Positions 3,951-9,949 of a stretch of 64,000 nt of DNA are shown here, piece after piece. This stretch comes from an uncultured Croceitalea sp. (lineage in GTDB: Bacteria; Bacteroidota; Bacteroidia; Flavobacteriales; Flavobacteriaceae). Position 1 is the stretch's first letter. The number at the start of each line of letters is the position of its first letter. A program made the translations under genes and the position numbers. Below the pieces are notes generated by a model that did no database searches, was not told the origin of the DNA, and saw nothing but the letters and a program-made list of their open reading frames with translations. The DNA is taken from positions 496,001 to 560,000 of the forward strand of contig CANMOV010000003.1 in NCBI GenBank assembly GCA_947499565.1, written 5' to 3'.

Positions 3951-4943
3951 TTAAGCGAATTCAAAATCACTAAATTTCTCTAACACCTCATCAAAAGCAG
4001 CAAATACATCTGCTGATTCGTCGCTAGTGACCATTTTCATTCGGTATTCTTTAAAATTGGGAATGCCTTTAAAGTAATTGGTATAATGGCGGCGCGTTTC
4101 AAATACGCCAAGTTTTTCTCCTTTCCAGTCAATGGACATTTGTAAATGCCTTCTAGCCGCCTCAACACGCTCTGTCATTGTTGGAGGTGTTGCATGAGTG
4201 CCTGTTTCAAAAAAATGTTTTACTTCCTTAAAAAACCATGGATAGCCAATACTTGCCCTGCCTATCATAGCGCCATCTAAACCATACTCATCTCTCATCC
4301 TCATAGCTGCTTCGGGCGTGTTTACATCTCCATTACCAAAAACAGGAATGTGCATTCTTTGGTTGTTTTTAACCTCGGCGATTGGCTCCCATCTGGCTTC
4401 ACCTTTATACATCTGCGCTCTTGTGCGGCCATGTATTGCAATAGCTTTACAGCCTACGTCTTGCAGTCTTTCTGCAACCTCAACAATCTTAATGGAGTCA
4501 TCATCCCACCCTAGTCTTGTTTTTACAGTTACCGGAAGTTTGGTATGCTTCACCATTGCTTTAGTGAGTGATACCATCAAATCGATATCTTTTAAAATTC
4601 CAGCTCCCGCTCCTTTAGAAACCACTTTCTTTACTGGGCAACCAAAATTGATATCGATAATATCTGGGCCAGACTTTTCTACAATCTCAACAGATTGTAA
4701 CATAGAGTCTAGGTTAGCTCCAAAAATCTGAATTCCTACTGGGCGCTCTTTTTCATAAATATCTAACTTCATAACACTTTTGGCAGCATCACGAATAAGC
4801 CCTTCCGAAGAAATAAACTCAGTATATACAACATCAGCTCCCTGTTCTTTACAAAGTGCACGAAAAGGAGGGTCGCTTACATCTTCCATAGGCGCAAGCA
4901 GTAAAGGAAAATCTGGTAACTGTATGTCTCCTATTTTAGGCAT
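3951..4943 (-). CDS. dusB: tRNA-dihydrouridine synthase B
   Basis: This 330-residue FMN enzyme reduces uridines in the D-loop of tRNA. Visible family motifs are the FMN-binding start LAPMEDVSDPPFRALC, the catalytic loop NFGCPVKKVVSKGAGAG with Cys102 as proton donor, KTRLGWDD, the HGRTRAQMYKG motif, and GNGDV with DGAMIGRASIGYPW near the phosphate site. The length is normal for DusB. It is convergent with the ABC permease (4 bp between stops) and divergent from the Lgt-like gene. Confidence 0.95.
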   Translation of the reverse strand: MPKIGDIQLPDFPLLLAPMEDVSDPPFRALCKEQGADVVYTEFISSEGLIRDAAKSVMKLDIYEKERPVGIQIFGANLDSMLQSVEIVEKSGPDIIDINFGCPVKKVVSKGAGAGILKDIDLMVSLTKAMVKHTKLPVTVKTRLGWDDDSIKIVEVAERLQDVGCKAIAIHGRTRAQMYKGEARWEPIAEVKNNQRMHIPVFGNGDVNTPEAAMRMRDEYGLDGAMIGRASIGYPWFFKEVKHFFETGTHATPPTMTERVEAARRHLQMSIDWKGEKLGVFETRRHYTNYFKGIPNFKEYRMKMVTSDESADVFAAFDEVLEKFSDFEFA

Positions 4944-5019: not shown

Positions 5020-5778
5020 ATGTTACCCTTTGAGCCCATTCTTTTTGGCATAAAAATTAACGTGCACCTTTTATTGGAGTATCTCGCATTCTTTGCTGGG
5101 TTTCGGTATTATATCGTATTGCGCAGAAAAAGTAACGATAAAATCTCTTCCAACAATCGCTTATCTATTCTAATTGGAGCTGTTTTTGGAGCTTTGTTTT
5201 TTTCAAGACTTGTTGCATTTTTAGAAAATCCAGAATTCCATTACCAACAAGGTTGGCTGCATATTTTAAATAACAAGACCATTATGGGTGGCCTCTTTGG
5301 TGGGCTATTGGGAGTTGAACTTTCCAAAAAAATAATTGGCGAGAAACAGTCATCTGGAGATTTGTTTACACTTCCCATTATCCTAGGAATTTTAATAGGT
5401 CGGATTGGTTGTTTTCTAGCTGGAATAAAAGAATTTACCTATGGAAAGGAAACTTCTTTTATTCTAGGCATGGATTTAGGTGATGGACTCAAAAGACACC
5501 CTATCGCATTGTATGAAGTTTTCTTTCTATTGTTCCTATTCTTTTATGTTCTAAAGCTTTGTCAAAAGAAGGCAATGCTTGAAAATGGCACGCTTTTTAA
5601 GATTTTTATGATTACCTACTTCTCATTTCGGTTTTGCATTGAGTTTATAAAACCAAATACCTTTTTGATTCTTGGTTTGAGTAGCATCCAATATTTATGC
5701 TTAATTTGTTTGGTGTACTACGCAAAAACTATAAAGAAAGGTCTTGTTTATGCCAGAAAGAAGTTATACGTATTATGA
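5020..5778 (+). CDS. Lgt-like (prolipoprotein diacylglyceryl transferase-fold) membrane protein
   Basis: This 252-residue polytopic protein (six or seven membrane segments) resembles prolipoprotein diacylglyceryl transferase in its middle GRIGCFLAG segment, the HPIALYE motif and the C-terminal FRFCIEF segment. Several residues essential in true Lgt look changed: the Asn of GRxGNF is Cys, and the His of the SFHGG loop is missing in MGGLFGGLLG. It may therefore be a paralogue acting on another lipid substrate rather than the housekeeping Lgt. Its last 29 bases overlap the radical SAM gene, so the two are almost certainly cotranscribed and translationally coupled. The fold is fairly sure; the reaction is unknown. 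Confidence 0.78.
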   Translation: MLPFEPILFGIKINVHLLLEYLAFFAGFRYYIVLRRKSNDKISSNNRLSILIGAVFGALFFSRLVAFLENPEFHYQQGWLHILNNKTIMGGLFGGLLGVELSKKIIGEKQSSGDLFTLPIILGILIGRIGCFLAGIKEFTYGKETSFILGMDLGDGLKRHPIALYEVFFLLFLFFYVLKLCQKKAMLENGTLFKIFMITYFSFRFCIEFIKPNTFLILGLSSIQYLCLICLVYYAKTIKKGLVYARKKLYVL

Positions 5779-7144
5779 TTTTACATTAAGTCTTTGTCCA
5801 GATTGTCTTCGGCGCGTAGATGCTAAAATAATCTTTGAAAATGACAAGGTCTATATGCTTAAAAATTGCAAAGAGCATGGTAAAAGCAAAGTGCTTATAG
5901 CAGATGATATTGCGTACTATAAAAACATAAGAAACTATAATAAAGCTTCAGAATACCCAAAAACTTTCAATACCAAAACACATTATGGTTGCCCCTATGA
6001 CTGTGGGCTGTGCCCTGACCATGAGCAACATTCTTGCTTAACCGTAATTGAAATGACCGATCGGTGTAATCTAACCTGTCCCACGTGTTATGCTGGGTCA
6101 TCTCCTACTTACGGTCGTCATAGGACCTTGGAGGAAATTAAAAAAATGCTTGACGTAATTGTTAAGAATGAAGGTGAGCCAGATGTGGTGCAACTCAGTG
6201 GTGGCGAGCCAACAATACATCCACAATTTTTTGAGGTTTTAGACTATGCAAAAACACTTCCTATTAGGCATTTAATGGTAAATACTAACGGTATTAAAAT
6301 TGCAAAGGATTTTGAGTTTGCTGAACGATTAGCTACCTATGCGCCGGATTTTGAAATCTATCTGCAGTTTGACTCCTTGGACAATGAAGTGCTTCAAACA
6401 CTGCGTGGTGCGGACTTGGCGGCAACACGTCTAAAAGCTTTGGCGCATTTAAATCTATTGAATCTCTCTACAACCTTAGTGGTAACATTACAAAAAGGCT
6501 TAAATGATCATGAAATGGGCGAAACCATTGATTTTGCTCTAAAGCAAAAATGCGTTCGTGGGGTCACTTTTCAACCAACACAAATAGCCGGTCGTTTAGA
6601 GAATTTTGAAGTTGATGAAAATAGAATTACGCTAACTGAAGTTCGCAGAAAAATTTTAGAACAGTCCCCAATTTTTGAAGGCGATGATTTAATCCCTGTT
6701 CCTTGTAATCCAGATGCATTAGTAATGGCCTATGCTTTAAAATTAGGTGACGAGGTGAGTCCTTTAACGCGATATATTAATCCAGATGATTTGCTGAACG
6801 AGGGGAAAAATACCATAATTTATGAGCAGGACGAAGCCTTACATGGTAAAATGATCGAGCTGTTCAGTACTGGAAATTCTGTGGAAAAGGCATCAGAGAA
6901 CCTAAAAAGCATTATGTGTTGTCTCCCCGAAATTGATGCGCCAGAGCTAGGTTATGATAATTTATTTCGCATTATAATTATGCAGTTTATAGATGCGCAT
7001 AACTTTGATGTTAGAGCTATTAAAAAATCCTGTGTGCATATCGTAAACAAGGATTATAAAATCATCCCTTTTGAGACTATGAATCTCTTTTATAGAGACG
7101 ATAAGATTGAACGATTAAAACAACTACAAAAAGAAGTGTTATGA
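5750..7144 (+). CDS. Tes/MJ0619-like radical SAM enzyme
   Basis: This is a 464-residue iron-sulfur enzyme. The ATG at 5750 is preferred to a TTG six bases earlier. The order is: an N-terminal CPDC...C-x2-H metal site (Cys16, Cys19, Cys40); a CPYDCGLC cluster motif (81-88) with Cys96; the radical SAM CNLTCPTC motif (106-113); SGGEP for SAM binding (150-154); and a C-terminal half with CC, FRIIIMQFIDAHNFD and a CVH motif. This multi-cluster layout is that of archaeal tetraether synthase (Tes/GDGT-MAS) and bacterial membrane-spanning-lipid synthases, which join lipid alkyl chains carbon-to-carbon. Lipid chemistry fits the overlapping Lgt-like gene, but the substrate here is inferred. It could be another enzyme of the same superfamily branch. 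Confidence 0.85.
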   Translation: MPERSYTYYDFTLSLCPDCLRRVDAKIIFENDKVYMLKNCKEHGKSKVLIADDIAYYKNIRNYNKASEYPKTFNTKTHYGCPYDCGLCPDHEQHSCLTVIEMTDRCNLTCPTCYAGSSPTYGRHRTLEEIKKMLDVIVKNEGEPDVVQLSGGEPTIHPQFFEVLDYAKTLPIRHLMVNTNGIKIAKDFEFAERLATYAPDFEIYLQFDSLDNEVLQTLRGADLAATRLKALAHLNLLNLSTTLVVTLQKGLNDHEMGETIDFALKQKCVRGVTFQPTQIAGRLENFEVDENRITLTEVRRKILEQSPIFEGDDLIPVPCNPDALVMAYALKLGDEVSPLTRYINPDDLLNEGKNTIIYEQDEALHGKMIELFSTGNSVEKASENLKSIMCCLPEIDAPELGYDNLFRIIIMQFIDAHNFDVRAIKKSCVHIVNKDYKIIPFETMNLFYRDDKIERLKQLQKEVL

Positions 7145-7317
7145 TTTATATCTTGTTTCTACTATTTGGACCAGCTCTTCTTTTTCTTATACTTGGCTTT
7201 TACTATAGAGGAAAAAATAGGAAAAAATCGAAAATTTTCTTTATCCTAACAGGTGTTTACCTTTTAATTAGTTTAGGCACATGCGGAATAATGCTAGCTA
7301 ATTTCAAATTACATTAA
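7141..7317 (+). CDS. Small membrane protein (58 residues)
   Basis: The ATG overlaps the stop of the radical SAM gene in an ATGA arrangement, which indicates translational coupling. The product has two hydrophobic segments (FLLFGPALLFLILGF and the FFILTGVYLLISLG region) separated by a short basic loop, YYRGKNRKKSK. It is clearly paralogous to the next small gene. No named family is recognised. Overlap, retained reading frame and paralogy together argue that it is real. It may be a small membrane partner of the lipid-related enzymes upstream. Confidence 0.72.
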   Translation: MIYILFLLFGPALLFLILGFYYRGKNRKKSKIFFILTGVYLLISLGTCGIMLANFKLH

Positions 7318-7321
7318 GCAT

Positions 7322-7522
7322 ATGCTTTTAGAGGTAGGAAATTTGGATGGTTTGGTAGTATTAATTTTTTTAATACTATTTGGTCCAGCCTTGTTGTTTT
7401 TAATAATTGGGATAATTCTATATGCCAAACAGAAGAAAAAAGCTGGGAAAATCTTCTTTATTCTAACAGGAATTTACCTGCTAATTAGCTTAGGGGTTTG
7501 CGGACTATTAGTTAGTGGATAA
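7322..7522 (+). CDS. Small membrane protein (66 residues), tandem paralogue
   Basis: It starts 4 bp after the preceding small gene and shares the pattern LFGPALLFLI, a basic loop (AKQKKKAGK), then FFILTG, YLLISLG and CG. It carries about eight extra residues at the N-terminus. Two membrane segments are predicted by eye, with a positive loop between them. Being last in the cassette, it points to a local duplication. The function is unknown. It is convergent with the outer-membrane receptor gene, with only 6 bp between stops. Confidence 0.75.
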   Translation: MLLEVGNLDGLVVLIFLILFGPALLFLIIGIILYAKQKKKAGKIFFILTGIYLLISLGVCGLLVSG

Positions 7523-7528
7523 TAAAAG

Positions 7529-9949
7529 TTATTCCTCTGATAAACGATCACGTTCTTTTTTATCTATACCTCTTTCGTTATCCTGTAAGCGAAAGTTCCC
7601 AAAGTTATAGGTAAAGCCAACTCTAATGAATTGGGTTTCATACCTAGTTCTATAAAAATTGTCTTGATTCAAGTATTGAGAAGAGTATCTTGCGTTTGCT
7701 TTTCTTAAAATGTCTTCGGCACCAATTGAAATAATGGCTCTGTTTTTCCAGAGTGATTTTCTCAAGCCTATATTTAGATTTGTAGTTGGTGACTGAATAT
7801 AAGAGCCAAACAAATAGTTGGAAAAATGTGTTAGGGTAACTTCCCCAGTCAAAGTGCCATCTTTAGCAAGGTTAAGATAATTTCCAAAATAAAGATAAAA
7901 ACCATTTAGGTCATTAGTGAATGGTTGATTCCCGCTTTCTTCCGCCAAAAAAGTTTCATCCTCATAAAAAATAGAAAGATAGGTATAGGTAGACCAAAAG
8001 GGTAAAATACTTTTACTTACCGTAAAGTCTATCCCGTAAGATGTGCTCTCCAATACGTTCTGCTTAGACGCTCTTAAGGTTTGGTTTTCATTATCTTGAA
8101 AAACCAATCTTCTGCTAATAAACTGTCCATTATCCCGATAGTAAAAATCTAGAAAAAACTCACTATTAAAGGTATAGTTAAGATTAAAATTATTGCTAAA
8201 ATTGGGTCTTAATGTTAGGTTTCCTTCTTCAAAATTATTTTCATTGTCAAAAAAGCGAAATGGGTTTAAATCGTTATAGCGAGGCCTCTCCACACCTCTT
8301 CCATAATCGAAAGAAAAACTATGTTTTTCCGAAGCCGTGTATAAAAGATAGAATGATGGGAAGGCTTCAAAAAAGTCTTGCGTATTCGTTTGATTCAGGG
8401 TTTCTGAAGTTCCAGCAGCTTCTGTAAGTTCTCCTCGCAAACCTAATTTCATGGACCATTTTTCCCAATTTTTAACAAAACTAAAATATCCAGCATAGAC
8501 CTTTTCGTCATAAAGGAAATTATCGGATAACGAGCTATCCACAGTGTCGCCATTACCTGAAAAATCGAAATAATCTATTGTATTCTCCGAGTCAATTGAA
8601 GAATATTTTAATCCAGATTCAAAAGAGGCACTCCCTATTGGAGTTGCGTAATCCAATTGTCCTGTAAAAATTTTAATGTTTTGGTCAGATGCTGTGGTAA
8701 ATCCAAAATCTCTAATGAACATTTGGTTAGCATCAAAGTATGTAGAATTAATTCTTTGTAATAACTGCCCATCATAATTTGTAAAATGTGTGTTGATGGA
8801 TAATTGAGACCCTTCTTTATTTAACTTTTTGATGTACGATAAGTCAAATGCTAAATTAGTGTTATCTACATCTGAAAAATTATCTGTTACAAAAGTAGAG
8901 TCTATTTGATTTTGCGTATTTGTTATCTCCGTATCAAGAATACTCTGCCTTTCTTGATTAGGATTGAATGATAAATTTGATGTGAAGTTCAAACTATTCT
9001 TATCATCAAAATCATAGTCTAAAATAAAAGTACCATTATGTGCTGCTGTTCTCTTTATTTCTTCAGCGTTTGTTTCCCATGTAGAAAATATAGAATTCGA
9101 GTCATTAATAAAGTCTATTCCTTCCCTCTTTTTTTTAAGCTCTTTTTTGGGGTTTATAGCATAGTTTGCAAAAAGATTGAGTTTGTCTGTTTTATAATAG
9201 TGGCTTGTCCCCAAATTGAATTTTGGAAATATCGCTTGGGTATATGAACCGTTTACACTGCCCTTGTAACCAGGCACTATACTTTTACTAGTAACAATAT
9301 TTAAAATTGGCCCACCTTCAGCATCATAGCGAGCAGGAGGGTTGGCAATTACTTCAACAGACTTTATTACAGTTCCCGTTAATCCTTGAAGCAAGTCTTG
9401 TACTTCTTGTCCAGACAATTGCACTTTTCTATCATTTAAATAAACCGTAGCGCTTTGTCCTCTAATTTGAAGGTCGTTCTGATTAACAATTACTCCCGGA
9501 GTGCTTTTTAAAATATCCCAAGAGCTTCCTTGAGAGACTACAGTATTCTCAACATTAAAAACCAATCTATCGGATAACCTTTGCACAGTAGGTCTTCGCG
9601 CAGTAACCACAACCTCATCTAAATTTTCCGTTGTAGAAGGTATAATCAACGCTCCAAGAGAGATATCTTTCTTAACATCCAATGCCAAAGGCTTTGACCC
9701 TGTTCCAATATAACTTGCTTGCAATAGATATAAGTCTGGCTCTATTCCTGTAAGTTCAAAAACACCGTTTTCAGAAGCAGATGTGCCTTTTACAAATGTG
9801 GAATCACTAGCATTTAAAAGCAGTATGTTAGCAAAAGGAACTAGTTCATTTTCTGTATTTACCACTTTTCCTCTAATCTTAAAGGTCTGAGAAAAACAGC
9901 TTCCTATCGTAAAGCAAATCAATAAAATGGGAAGTATTGGGTTCTTCAT
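7529..9949 (-). CDS. TonB-receptor-like outer membrane beta-barrel protein
   Basis: This 806-residue protein starts with a signal peptide and a carboxypeptidase-regulatory-like domain (about 25-110: KIRGKVVNTENELVPFANI). A plug-like region follows (about 120-225: LDEVVVTARRP, TPGVIVNQNDLQIRG, ANPPARYDAEGGPILNIVT), then a long barrel ending in a C-terminal strand region (FIRVGFTYNFGNFRL). It belongs to the outer-membrane beta-barrel family found singly in Bacteroidetes genomes and lacks a SusD partner here, so it is probably not a glycan uptake locus. The transported ligand is unknown. It is divergent from lepA. Confidence 0.88.
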   Translation of the reverse strand: MKNPILPILLICFTIGSCFSQTFKIRGKVVNTENELVPFANILLLNASDSTFVKGTSASENGVFELTGIEPDLYLLQASYIGTGSKPLALDVKKDISLGALIIPSTTENLDEVVVTARRPTVQRLSDRLVFNVENTVVSQGSSWDILKSTPGVIVNQNDLQIRGQSATVYLNDRKVQLSGQEVQDLLQGLTGTVIKSVEVIANPPARYDAEGGPILNIVTSKSIVPGYKGSVNGSYTQAIFPKFNLGTSHYYKTDKLNLFANYAINPKKELKKKREGIDFINDSNSIFSTWETNAEEIKRTAAHNGTFILDYDFDDKNSLNFTSNLSFNPNQERQSILDTEITNTQNQIDSTFVTDNFSDVDNTNLAFDLSYIKKLNKEGSQLSINTHFTNYDGQLLQRINSTYFDANQMFIRDFGFTTASDQNIKIFTGQLDYATPIGSASFESGLKYSSIDSENTIDYFDFSGNGDTVDSSLSDNFLYDEKVYAGYFSFVKNWEKWSMKLGLRGELTEAAGTSETLNQTNTQDFFEAFPSFYLLYTASEKHSFSFDYGRGVERPRYNDLNPFRFFDNENNFEEGNLTLRPNFSNNFNLNYTFNSEFFLDFYYRDNGQFISRRLVFQDNENQTLRASKQNVLESTSYGIDFTVSKSILPFWSTYTYLSIFYEDETFLAEESGNQPFTNDLNGFYLYFGNYLNLAKDGTLTGEVTLTHFSNYLFGSYIQSPTTNLNIGLRKSLWKNRAIISIGAEDILRKANARYSSQYLNQDNFYRTRYETQFIRVGFTYNFGNFRLQDNERGIDKKERDRLSEE

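Follow-up and report, generated by a model that had tools for sequence, protein, structure and literature searches.

A conserved pair of Lgt-like and Tes-like radical SAM genes in flavobacteria and its possible role in lipid modification

The window analysed here is a stretch of 64,000 nucleotides from an uncultured Croceitalea sp. (positions 496,001 to 560,000 of contig CANMOV010000003.1), and at its positions 5020-7522 four plus-strand genes form a cassette in which a membrane protein with the Lgt fold is encoded beside a radical S-adenosylmethionine (SAM) protein resembling the lipid-coupling enzyme Tes. This coupled four-gene cassette, with the motifs named below, is confirmed. The Lgt-like and radical SAM gene pair is real, conserved and, as far as our literature searches reach, so far undescribed; no publication on such a pair was found in the part of the literature searched. 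We place at about even probability the reading, drawn from sequence, that the cassette is a two-enzyme lipid module in which Lgt-like use of a lipid donor would be combined with a Tes-like radical attack on an acyl tail. An earlier sequence-only reading of this DNA is partly supported, in that the coupling and the lipid direction it proposed hold, and its assignment of a tetraether-type synthase does not. The four genes, as called from open reading frames (ORFs), are as follows.

5020..5778, plus strand: Lgt-fold membrane protein, 252 amino acids, partner of the radical SAM enzyme
5750..7144, plus strand: Tes-like radical SAM protein, 464 amino acids
7141..7317, plus strand: mini membrane protein 1, 58 amino acids, homologous to mini protein 2
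7322..7522, plus strand: mini membrane protein 2, 66 amino acids, with matches in other genomes

Placing the start of the radical SAM protein at the ATG at 5750, which gives 464 amino acids, produces a 29-base overlap with the Lgt-like ORF ending at 5778. Its TGA stop codon (7142-7144) and the mini 1 ATG at 7141 form an ATGA overlap, and the mini 1 stop codon, ending at 7317, is followed after a 4-base gap by the mini 2 ATG at 7322. The gene coupling that had been claimed from these three junctions is borne out by the ORF calls and re-checked coordinates. The genes on either side (3951-4943 and 7529-9949) are both minus-strand, which sets the four apart as a separate group. The ORF list contains no methyltransferase gene in the cassette and no gene beyond the four, and a promoter and terminator scan yielded nothing in excess of shuffled sequence.

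Linkage of the pair was followed in the best 80 of 245 confirmed relatives (the named loci), in a close survey of 59 genomes and in a phylum sample of 296 Bacteroidota genomes, the last two each counting the window's own genome and having G000, G008, G039 and G052 in common. In the close survey, a full-length radical SAM match (at least 720 bits) was detected in 12 of the 59 genomes, and the same 12 encode an Lgt-like protein (above 220 bits, with the next best match at 44 bits), whose gene in every case adjoins that of the radical SAM protein; none of the 47 genomes without the radical SAM gene has a partner at comparable score. Among the named loci, 79 of 80 carry a whole Lgt-like gene upstream on the same strand, most of them touching or overlapping and the farthest 1.6 kb away, and the overlap of the two genes recurs in 69 of the 80. 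The exception is Hyunsoonleella ulvae (L057:2953-3208), in which the Lgt-like gene is fragmented and the radical SAM gene whole; its sister species (L073) has a whole Lgt-like gene about 1.6 kb upstream.

In the phylum sample, 26 of the 296 genomes match the NCBIfam model of TrsS, a radical SAM (seleno)protein family, above 190 bits, and none passes its cut-off of 490. One of these 26 (G123) passes the Tes cut-off at 493.8 bits. Each of the remaining 25 has a gene for the Lgt-like partner: in 23 it lies next to the radical SAM gene, no more than about 1.1 kb away, and in two (G327 and G091) it lies elsewhere in the genome, the partner having been looked for in the radical SAM-bearing genomes of this sample. 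Scores on the Tes model were obtained for the window protein and 10 homologues; the other homologues of this sample were called non-Tes by tree position or by identity to the window protein. As a control, all six genomes with enzymes of the Tes type or of the related bacterial type Mss (427-511 bits, two over the cut-off, G123 included) hold one PF01790 protein only, and in each case it falls with the other Lgts, i.e. there is no partner. Chance adjacency was rejected, as the pair recurs widely and genomes with Tes/Mss-type enzymes lack the partner. Conserved linkage with the Lgt-like gene had been set beforehand as one of two checks on which the idea could fail, and the linkage proved strong in both the close survey (12 of 12) and the phylum sample (23 of 25).

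Carriers of the pair include cultured marine and other flavobacteria, of genera such as Zobellia, Maribacter and Flavobacterium, as well as genome G152 and Persicobacter (L197), and outside Bacteroidota the pair is present in Mycobacterium branderi and Nonomuraea records, with enzymes about 30% identical to the window's. In the trees, G312, a member of the window's family, has its enzyme placed with the one of G194, which belongs to a different family (support 100/100), and its Lgt-like protein likewise placed with G194's (Shimodaira-Hasegawa-like approximate likelihood ratio test, SH-aLRT, 100), while the other Lgt of G312 stays with its own family. From this grouping, the two genes seem to have moved together as a unit. 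Two distant cassettes have a third gene between the pair, encoding an ICMT/phospholipid-methyltransferase-like protein (L188:4784-5377) or a DUF4395 protein (L174:7771-8451), both of which we take to be membrane-protein families.

Structure comparison shows the Tes fold spanning the whole chain of the radical SAM protein, and its nearest solved relative by sequence and fold is GDGT-MAS/Tes. In a tree of 36 rows, which has long branches and for which no root was inferred, the window protein groups with 22 other Bacteroidota rows (support 95/92); this group consists of the Lgt-linked enzymes except L235 (genome G152), plus two with an unlinked partner. The Tes clade of seven rows (M. jannaschii, L175, L238 and L240-L243) is separate from the window protein (100/99), and L235 forms a third group with the Lgt-linked Mycobacterium and Nonomuraea rows L201 and L202 (100/100). 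The branch uniting all rows from genomes with an Lgt-like partner is weak (83/28). The relation to TrsS and Mss was assessed through profile scores and stand-in sequences. Apart from the Lgt-linked branch, one Bacteroidota order, with 116 genomes surveyed, has Tes/Mss-type enzymes in six of them (L175, L238 and L240-L243; genomes G123, G401, G410, G355, G358 and G388) at 427-511 bits, two of the 116 being over 450.

The predicted metal sites of the radical SAM protein are listed below, with the evidence for each.

5795..5878, plus strand: rubredoxin-type metal site C16-C19-C40-H43; PF23545 at residues 8-51, columns of Tes C9, C12, C33 and H36
5990..6031, plus strand: site of the N-terminal auxiliary cluster, formed by C81, C85 and C88 plus a His (H91 or H94); aligned with Tes C73, C77 and C80
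6065..6088, plus strand: radical SAM cluster motif CNLTCPTC (C106, C110, C113); domain search, motif and Tes alignment
6704..6706, plus strand: C319, invariant Cys of a probable changed C-terminal cluster site; 51 of 51 orthologue rows, Tes alignment
6917..6922, plus strand: C390-C391 (CCLP motif), invariant and without a Tes counterpart; 51 of 51 orthologue rows, Tes alignment
7031..7039, plus strand: C428-V-H430 C-terminal motif, with C428 in the Tes C456 column; orthologue and Tes alignments

The sequence-only reading had taken a CxxC/CxxH site, CPYDCGLC, CNLTCPTC and a C-terminal CVH for the layout of tetraether synthases. All are there, verified as CPDC (C16, C19), CKEH (C40, H43), CPYDCGLC (C81, C85, C88), the CX3CX2C radical SAM motif CNLTCPTC and SCVH (C428), and their cysteines, together with H43, do not vary across 51 aligned orthologues at 81-94% identity; the CVH alone, however, does not make a Tes C-terminal site. 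The rubredoxin site and the three N-terminal cluster cysteines align in register with the Tes columns (ligand numbers from PMC9433317). At the C-terminal end, each of the 14 printed rows of the window clade has C319, C390 and C391, and 13 have C428, the exception being L186, whose C-terminus diverges near a contig end. All four are invariant in the 51 closer orthologues, and the distant Lgt-linked homologues L174 and L188 retain C319 and C428 without C390-C391. This C-terminal site is probably still a metal site with ligands other than those of Tes. The AlphaFold2 model is weak (predicted local distance difference test 58.9, with 200 of 464 residues below 50, including much of the C-terminal part), too weak at this site for distances between C319, C390, C391 and C428. 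Met411 lies in the Tes Met439 column and an Ile in that of Tyr459; the printed Bacteroidota Tes-group rows also lack Met439, and Tes variants of Met439 or Tyr459 are reported to be still active. The Lgt-linked L201, L202 and L235 show the reverse of the window pattern, lacking the N-terminal cluster cysteines and keeping the rubredoxin site and the Tes-type C-terminal cysteines.

The partner protein has a PF01790 domain and the Lgt fold by domain search and structure comparison, and scores 51 bits on the lgt equivalog model TIGR00544, below the cut-off of 118.9. A second Lgt is encoded elsewhere in the genome, and the idea that the partner is the ordinary Lgt was rejected on that ground. The catalytic His103 of the HGGL motif, which is essential in E. 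coli Lgt, where an H103Y exchange is inactive (PMC4728403), corresponds to Met89 in the window partner and is M, V, L, T or A, never His, in all 26 partner rows. This loss is weaker evidence than it looks, because 10 of 23 other Lgts also lack the histidine that 13 keep, in a comparison from which L215, the other Lgt of G091, had been dropped beforehand for its low score. In four Bacteroidota genomes the sole PF01790 protein (L251-L254) has Tyr at this position, even though H103Y is inactive in E. coli (PMC4728403). The donor-site residues R143, Y235 and R239 have equivalents in R128, Y200 and R204 of the window partner, each present in 26 of 26 partner rows, as is the equivalent of Lgt E202. 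In the Lgt tree, partners are split from 22 of the 23 other Lgts by a branch with SH-aLRT 99, the exception, L231, being a very long branch.

The two mini proteins are homologous to each other (59% over 55 residues), and a Pfam search of them found nothing above cut-off. Of 91 loci that carry the radical SAM gene, some species being counted twice, 88 have at least one mini gene, and in the close survey 11 of 59 genomes have a match: 10 of the 12 that encode the radical SAM protein (all but G039 and G052) and one of the 47 that do not. The latter, G010 (L255:734-943), has a lone mini homologue, and neither gene of the pair appears in the 4 kb that were read there. The mini proteins thus look accessory within Flavobacteriaceae and outside the core pair.

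From the computed linkage, folds, metal-site motifs and kept donor-site residues we infer a lipid substrate, an acceptor, a product and an order of steps. The Lgt-like membrane protein would bind phosphatidylglycerol or a like phosphoglyceride and move its diacylglyceryl part to an acceptor other than a lipobox cysteine. The Tes-like enzyme would abstract a hydrogen atom from an acyl chain of that lipid, and the carbon radical would be stabilised on the C-terminal metal site to give a C-C joined or otherwise functionalised tail, with the mini proteins likely serving as membrane accessory parts in Flavobacteriaceae. The changed C-terminal site may allow C-C joining, sulfur insertion or another tail change; should the module act on lipids, tail-to-tail C-C joining would account for about half of our expectation. 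This reading is favoured because the nearest solved relative is the lipid-coupling enzyme Tes, because the partner has the fold and donor-site residues of a phosphatidylglycerol-using enzyme, and because the pair stays together over large distances and appears to move jointly. In addition, density seen in E. coli-derived GDGT-MAS/Tes crystals was interpreted as two phosphatidic acids (PMC9433317).

Several results weigh against a lipid module or against the assignment to Tes. On the NCBIfam Tes model (NF045702) the window protein scores 286.5 bits, below the cut-off of 450, which the control, Bacteroidota homologue L175 (genome G123), exceeds at 493.8 bits. The best-scoring named family is TrsS (NF045646), with 324.6 bits over residues 12-450, itself below a cut-off of 490, and no known function or substrate for TrsS was found in the literature searched. 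The window protein has none of the cysteines C338, C455 and C470 that all five Tes-group rows printed in the alignment share, and which, from that invariance, are likely the C-terminal cluster ligands; in the 14 printed rows of the window clade, Cys occurs at Tes position 338 in one (L178) and at 455 and 470 in none. About 20 residues ahead of Tes C338 are absent as well, and with the ligands also changed, Tes chemistry cannot be assumed. The claimed membership in the tetraether or membrane-spanning synthases is not supported; the Tes-like fold and the Lgt-fold partner that accompanied it stand. Lgt has its activity on the periplasmic face of the membrane and Tes-type enzymes are soluble proteins of the cytosol, so that they do not necessarily encounter a common lipid. 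The lipid substrate is itself a suggestion from sequence and fold. Finally, Mycolicibacterium and two haloarchaeal TrsS-like homologues adjoin a DVU_1556-type methyltransferase, with no annotated Lgt within 5-6 kb.

The higher score for TrsS than for Tes, the lost Tes ligands and the methyltransferase pairing of related enzymes all favour the main rival, which we hold to be unlikely: a TrsS-like non-lipid pathway in which the radical SAM protein would make or change a small molecule that the Lgt-like protein attaches to, or takes from, the membrane. TrsS outscores Tes for the distant Lgt-linked homologues L174 and L188 too. Yet neither cut-off is reached, the window cassette lacks a methyltransferase, the sole solved structure of this fold found here is a lipid enzyme, and TrsS has no assigned substrate, which leaves room for a lipid; no homologue of the window branch with a known substrate, lipid or other, was found. 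In L198, L199 and L200 (Mycolicibacterium, haloarchaeal plasmid) the methyltransferase gene follows the radical SAM homologue, scoring 130-136 bits, below the family cut-off of 155, and the Mycolicibacterium stretch also encodes CcdA, a disulfide oxidoreductase and another radical SAM protein. Searches for DVU1556, DVU1557, DVU1553 and TrsM gave no relevant literature among the matches listed.

A lipoprotein-modifying pair appears improbable. In this reading the Lgt-like protein would act as an additional, specialised diacylglyceryl transferase for lipoproteins and its radical SAM neighbour would alter the diacylglyceryl-cysteine of certain lipoproteins, as the kept fold and donor-site residues allow; His103 is absent as well from some Lgts that are the only one in their Bacteroidota genome, which makes its loss compatible with lipoprotein transfer. 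However, a residue that is essential in E. coli even against exchange to Tyr (PMC4728403) is replaced in all 26 partner rows, the genome has another Lgt, and the cassette holds no further gene. We give a similarly small probability to a true bacterial membrane-spanning lipid synthase (Mss/Tes orthologue) making iso-diabolic acid-type tails, for which the Tes fold and three of the four metal sites would speak. Iso-branched C15 tails are typical of flavobacteria and would likewise speak for it. An ordinary Tes orthologue was nevertheless not accepted, given the missed cut-off, the position outside the Tes clade (100/99), the absent Tes cluster cysteines and the lack of an Lgt partner in all six genomes with Tes/Mss-type enzymes, even with iso-branched C15 tails as the proposed Mss substrates (PMC13274423). 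Within the lipid module, we regard as a long shot a sulfur-bridged lipid, in which the enzyme with its changed C-terminal cluster would put sulfur on an acyl tail and the Lgt-like protein would use this lipid thiol as acceptor instead of a lipobox cysteine, yielding a thioether-joined double lipid. The thiol acceptor is suggested because the Lgt family joins diacylglyceryl to a thiol, and Tes makes a thiolated lipid as intermediate, with a sulfur-carbon intermediate forming at its C-terminal site (PMC9433317). Such a product, if real, would be a new membrane lipid class in aerobic mesophilic bacteria.

Most known cases of radical chemistry on inert lipid tails come from archaea and anaerobes, and the cassette links an Lgt-fold partner to a Tes-fold enzyme whose active-site cluster is changed, in flavobacteria and, more distantly, actinomycetes. 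The original Mss paper is reportedly that of Sahonero-Canavesi et al. 2022. Tes/Mss-type enzymes in Bacteroidota are as such no novelty, since Mss homologues were already published in 7 of 273 Bacteroidota metagenome-assembled genomes (PMC11868695). Mss and Ger are described in PMC13274423, and Gms is another radical SAM lipid enzyme (PMC11186832). Bacterial Tes homologues occur in organisms not known to make biphytanyl chains (PMC9433317), and the question of their role, raised there, gains a concrete two-gene system in cultivable species. By loose cut-offs, 456 Tes homologues have been counted in bacteria (PMC8941075); in environmental surveys, counts of this kind may lump the present module together with genuine membrane-spanning lipid synthases.

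Compared with known systems, the window protein is a near full-length match to TrsS under that family's cut-off, but its frame is open without a selenocysteine codon, and unlike the TrsS-like homologues that adjoin a methyltransferase it has no such neighbour. Mss is reported to share the catalytic architecture of Tes (PMC13274423), and the window protein is separate from the Bacteroidota Tes-clade stand-ins (L175, L238 and L240-L243) used in place of a reference Mss. The partner shares domain and fold with Lgt (PF01790, PDB 5AZB) but lacks His103, scores under the equivalog cut-off and lies across a branch from 22 of 23 other Lgts. Set against Tes/GDGT-MAS (MJ0619, PDB 7TOL and 7TOM), the window protein falls in its own clade, is about 40 residues shorter, has C338, C455 and C470 replaced and Ile in the Tyr459 column, holds C319, C390, C391 and C428 as its invariant cysteines, and belongs to a type of enzyme that is accompanied by an Lgt-like gene in the surveyed Bacteroidota genomes.
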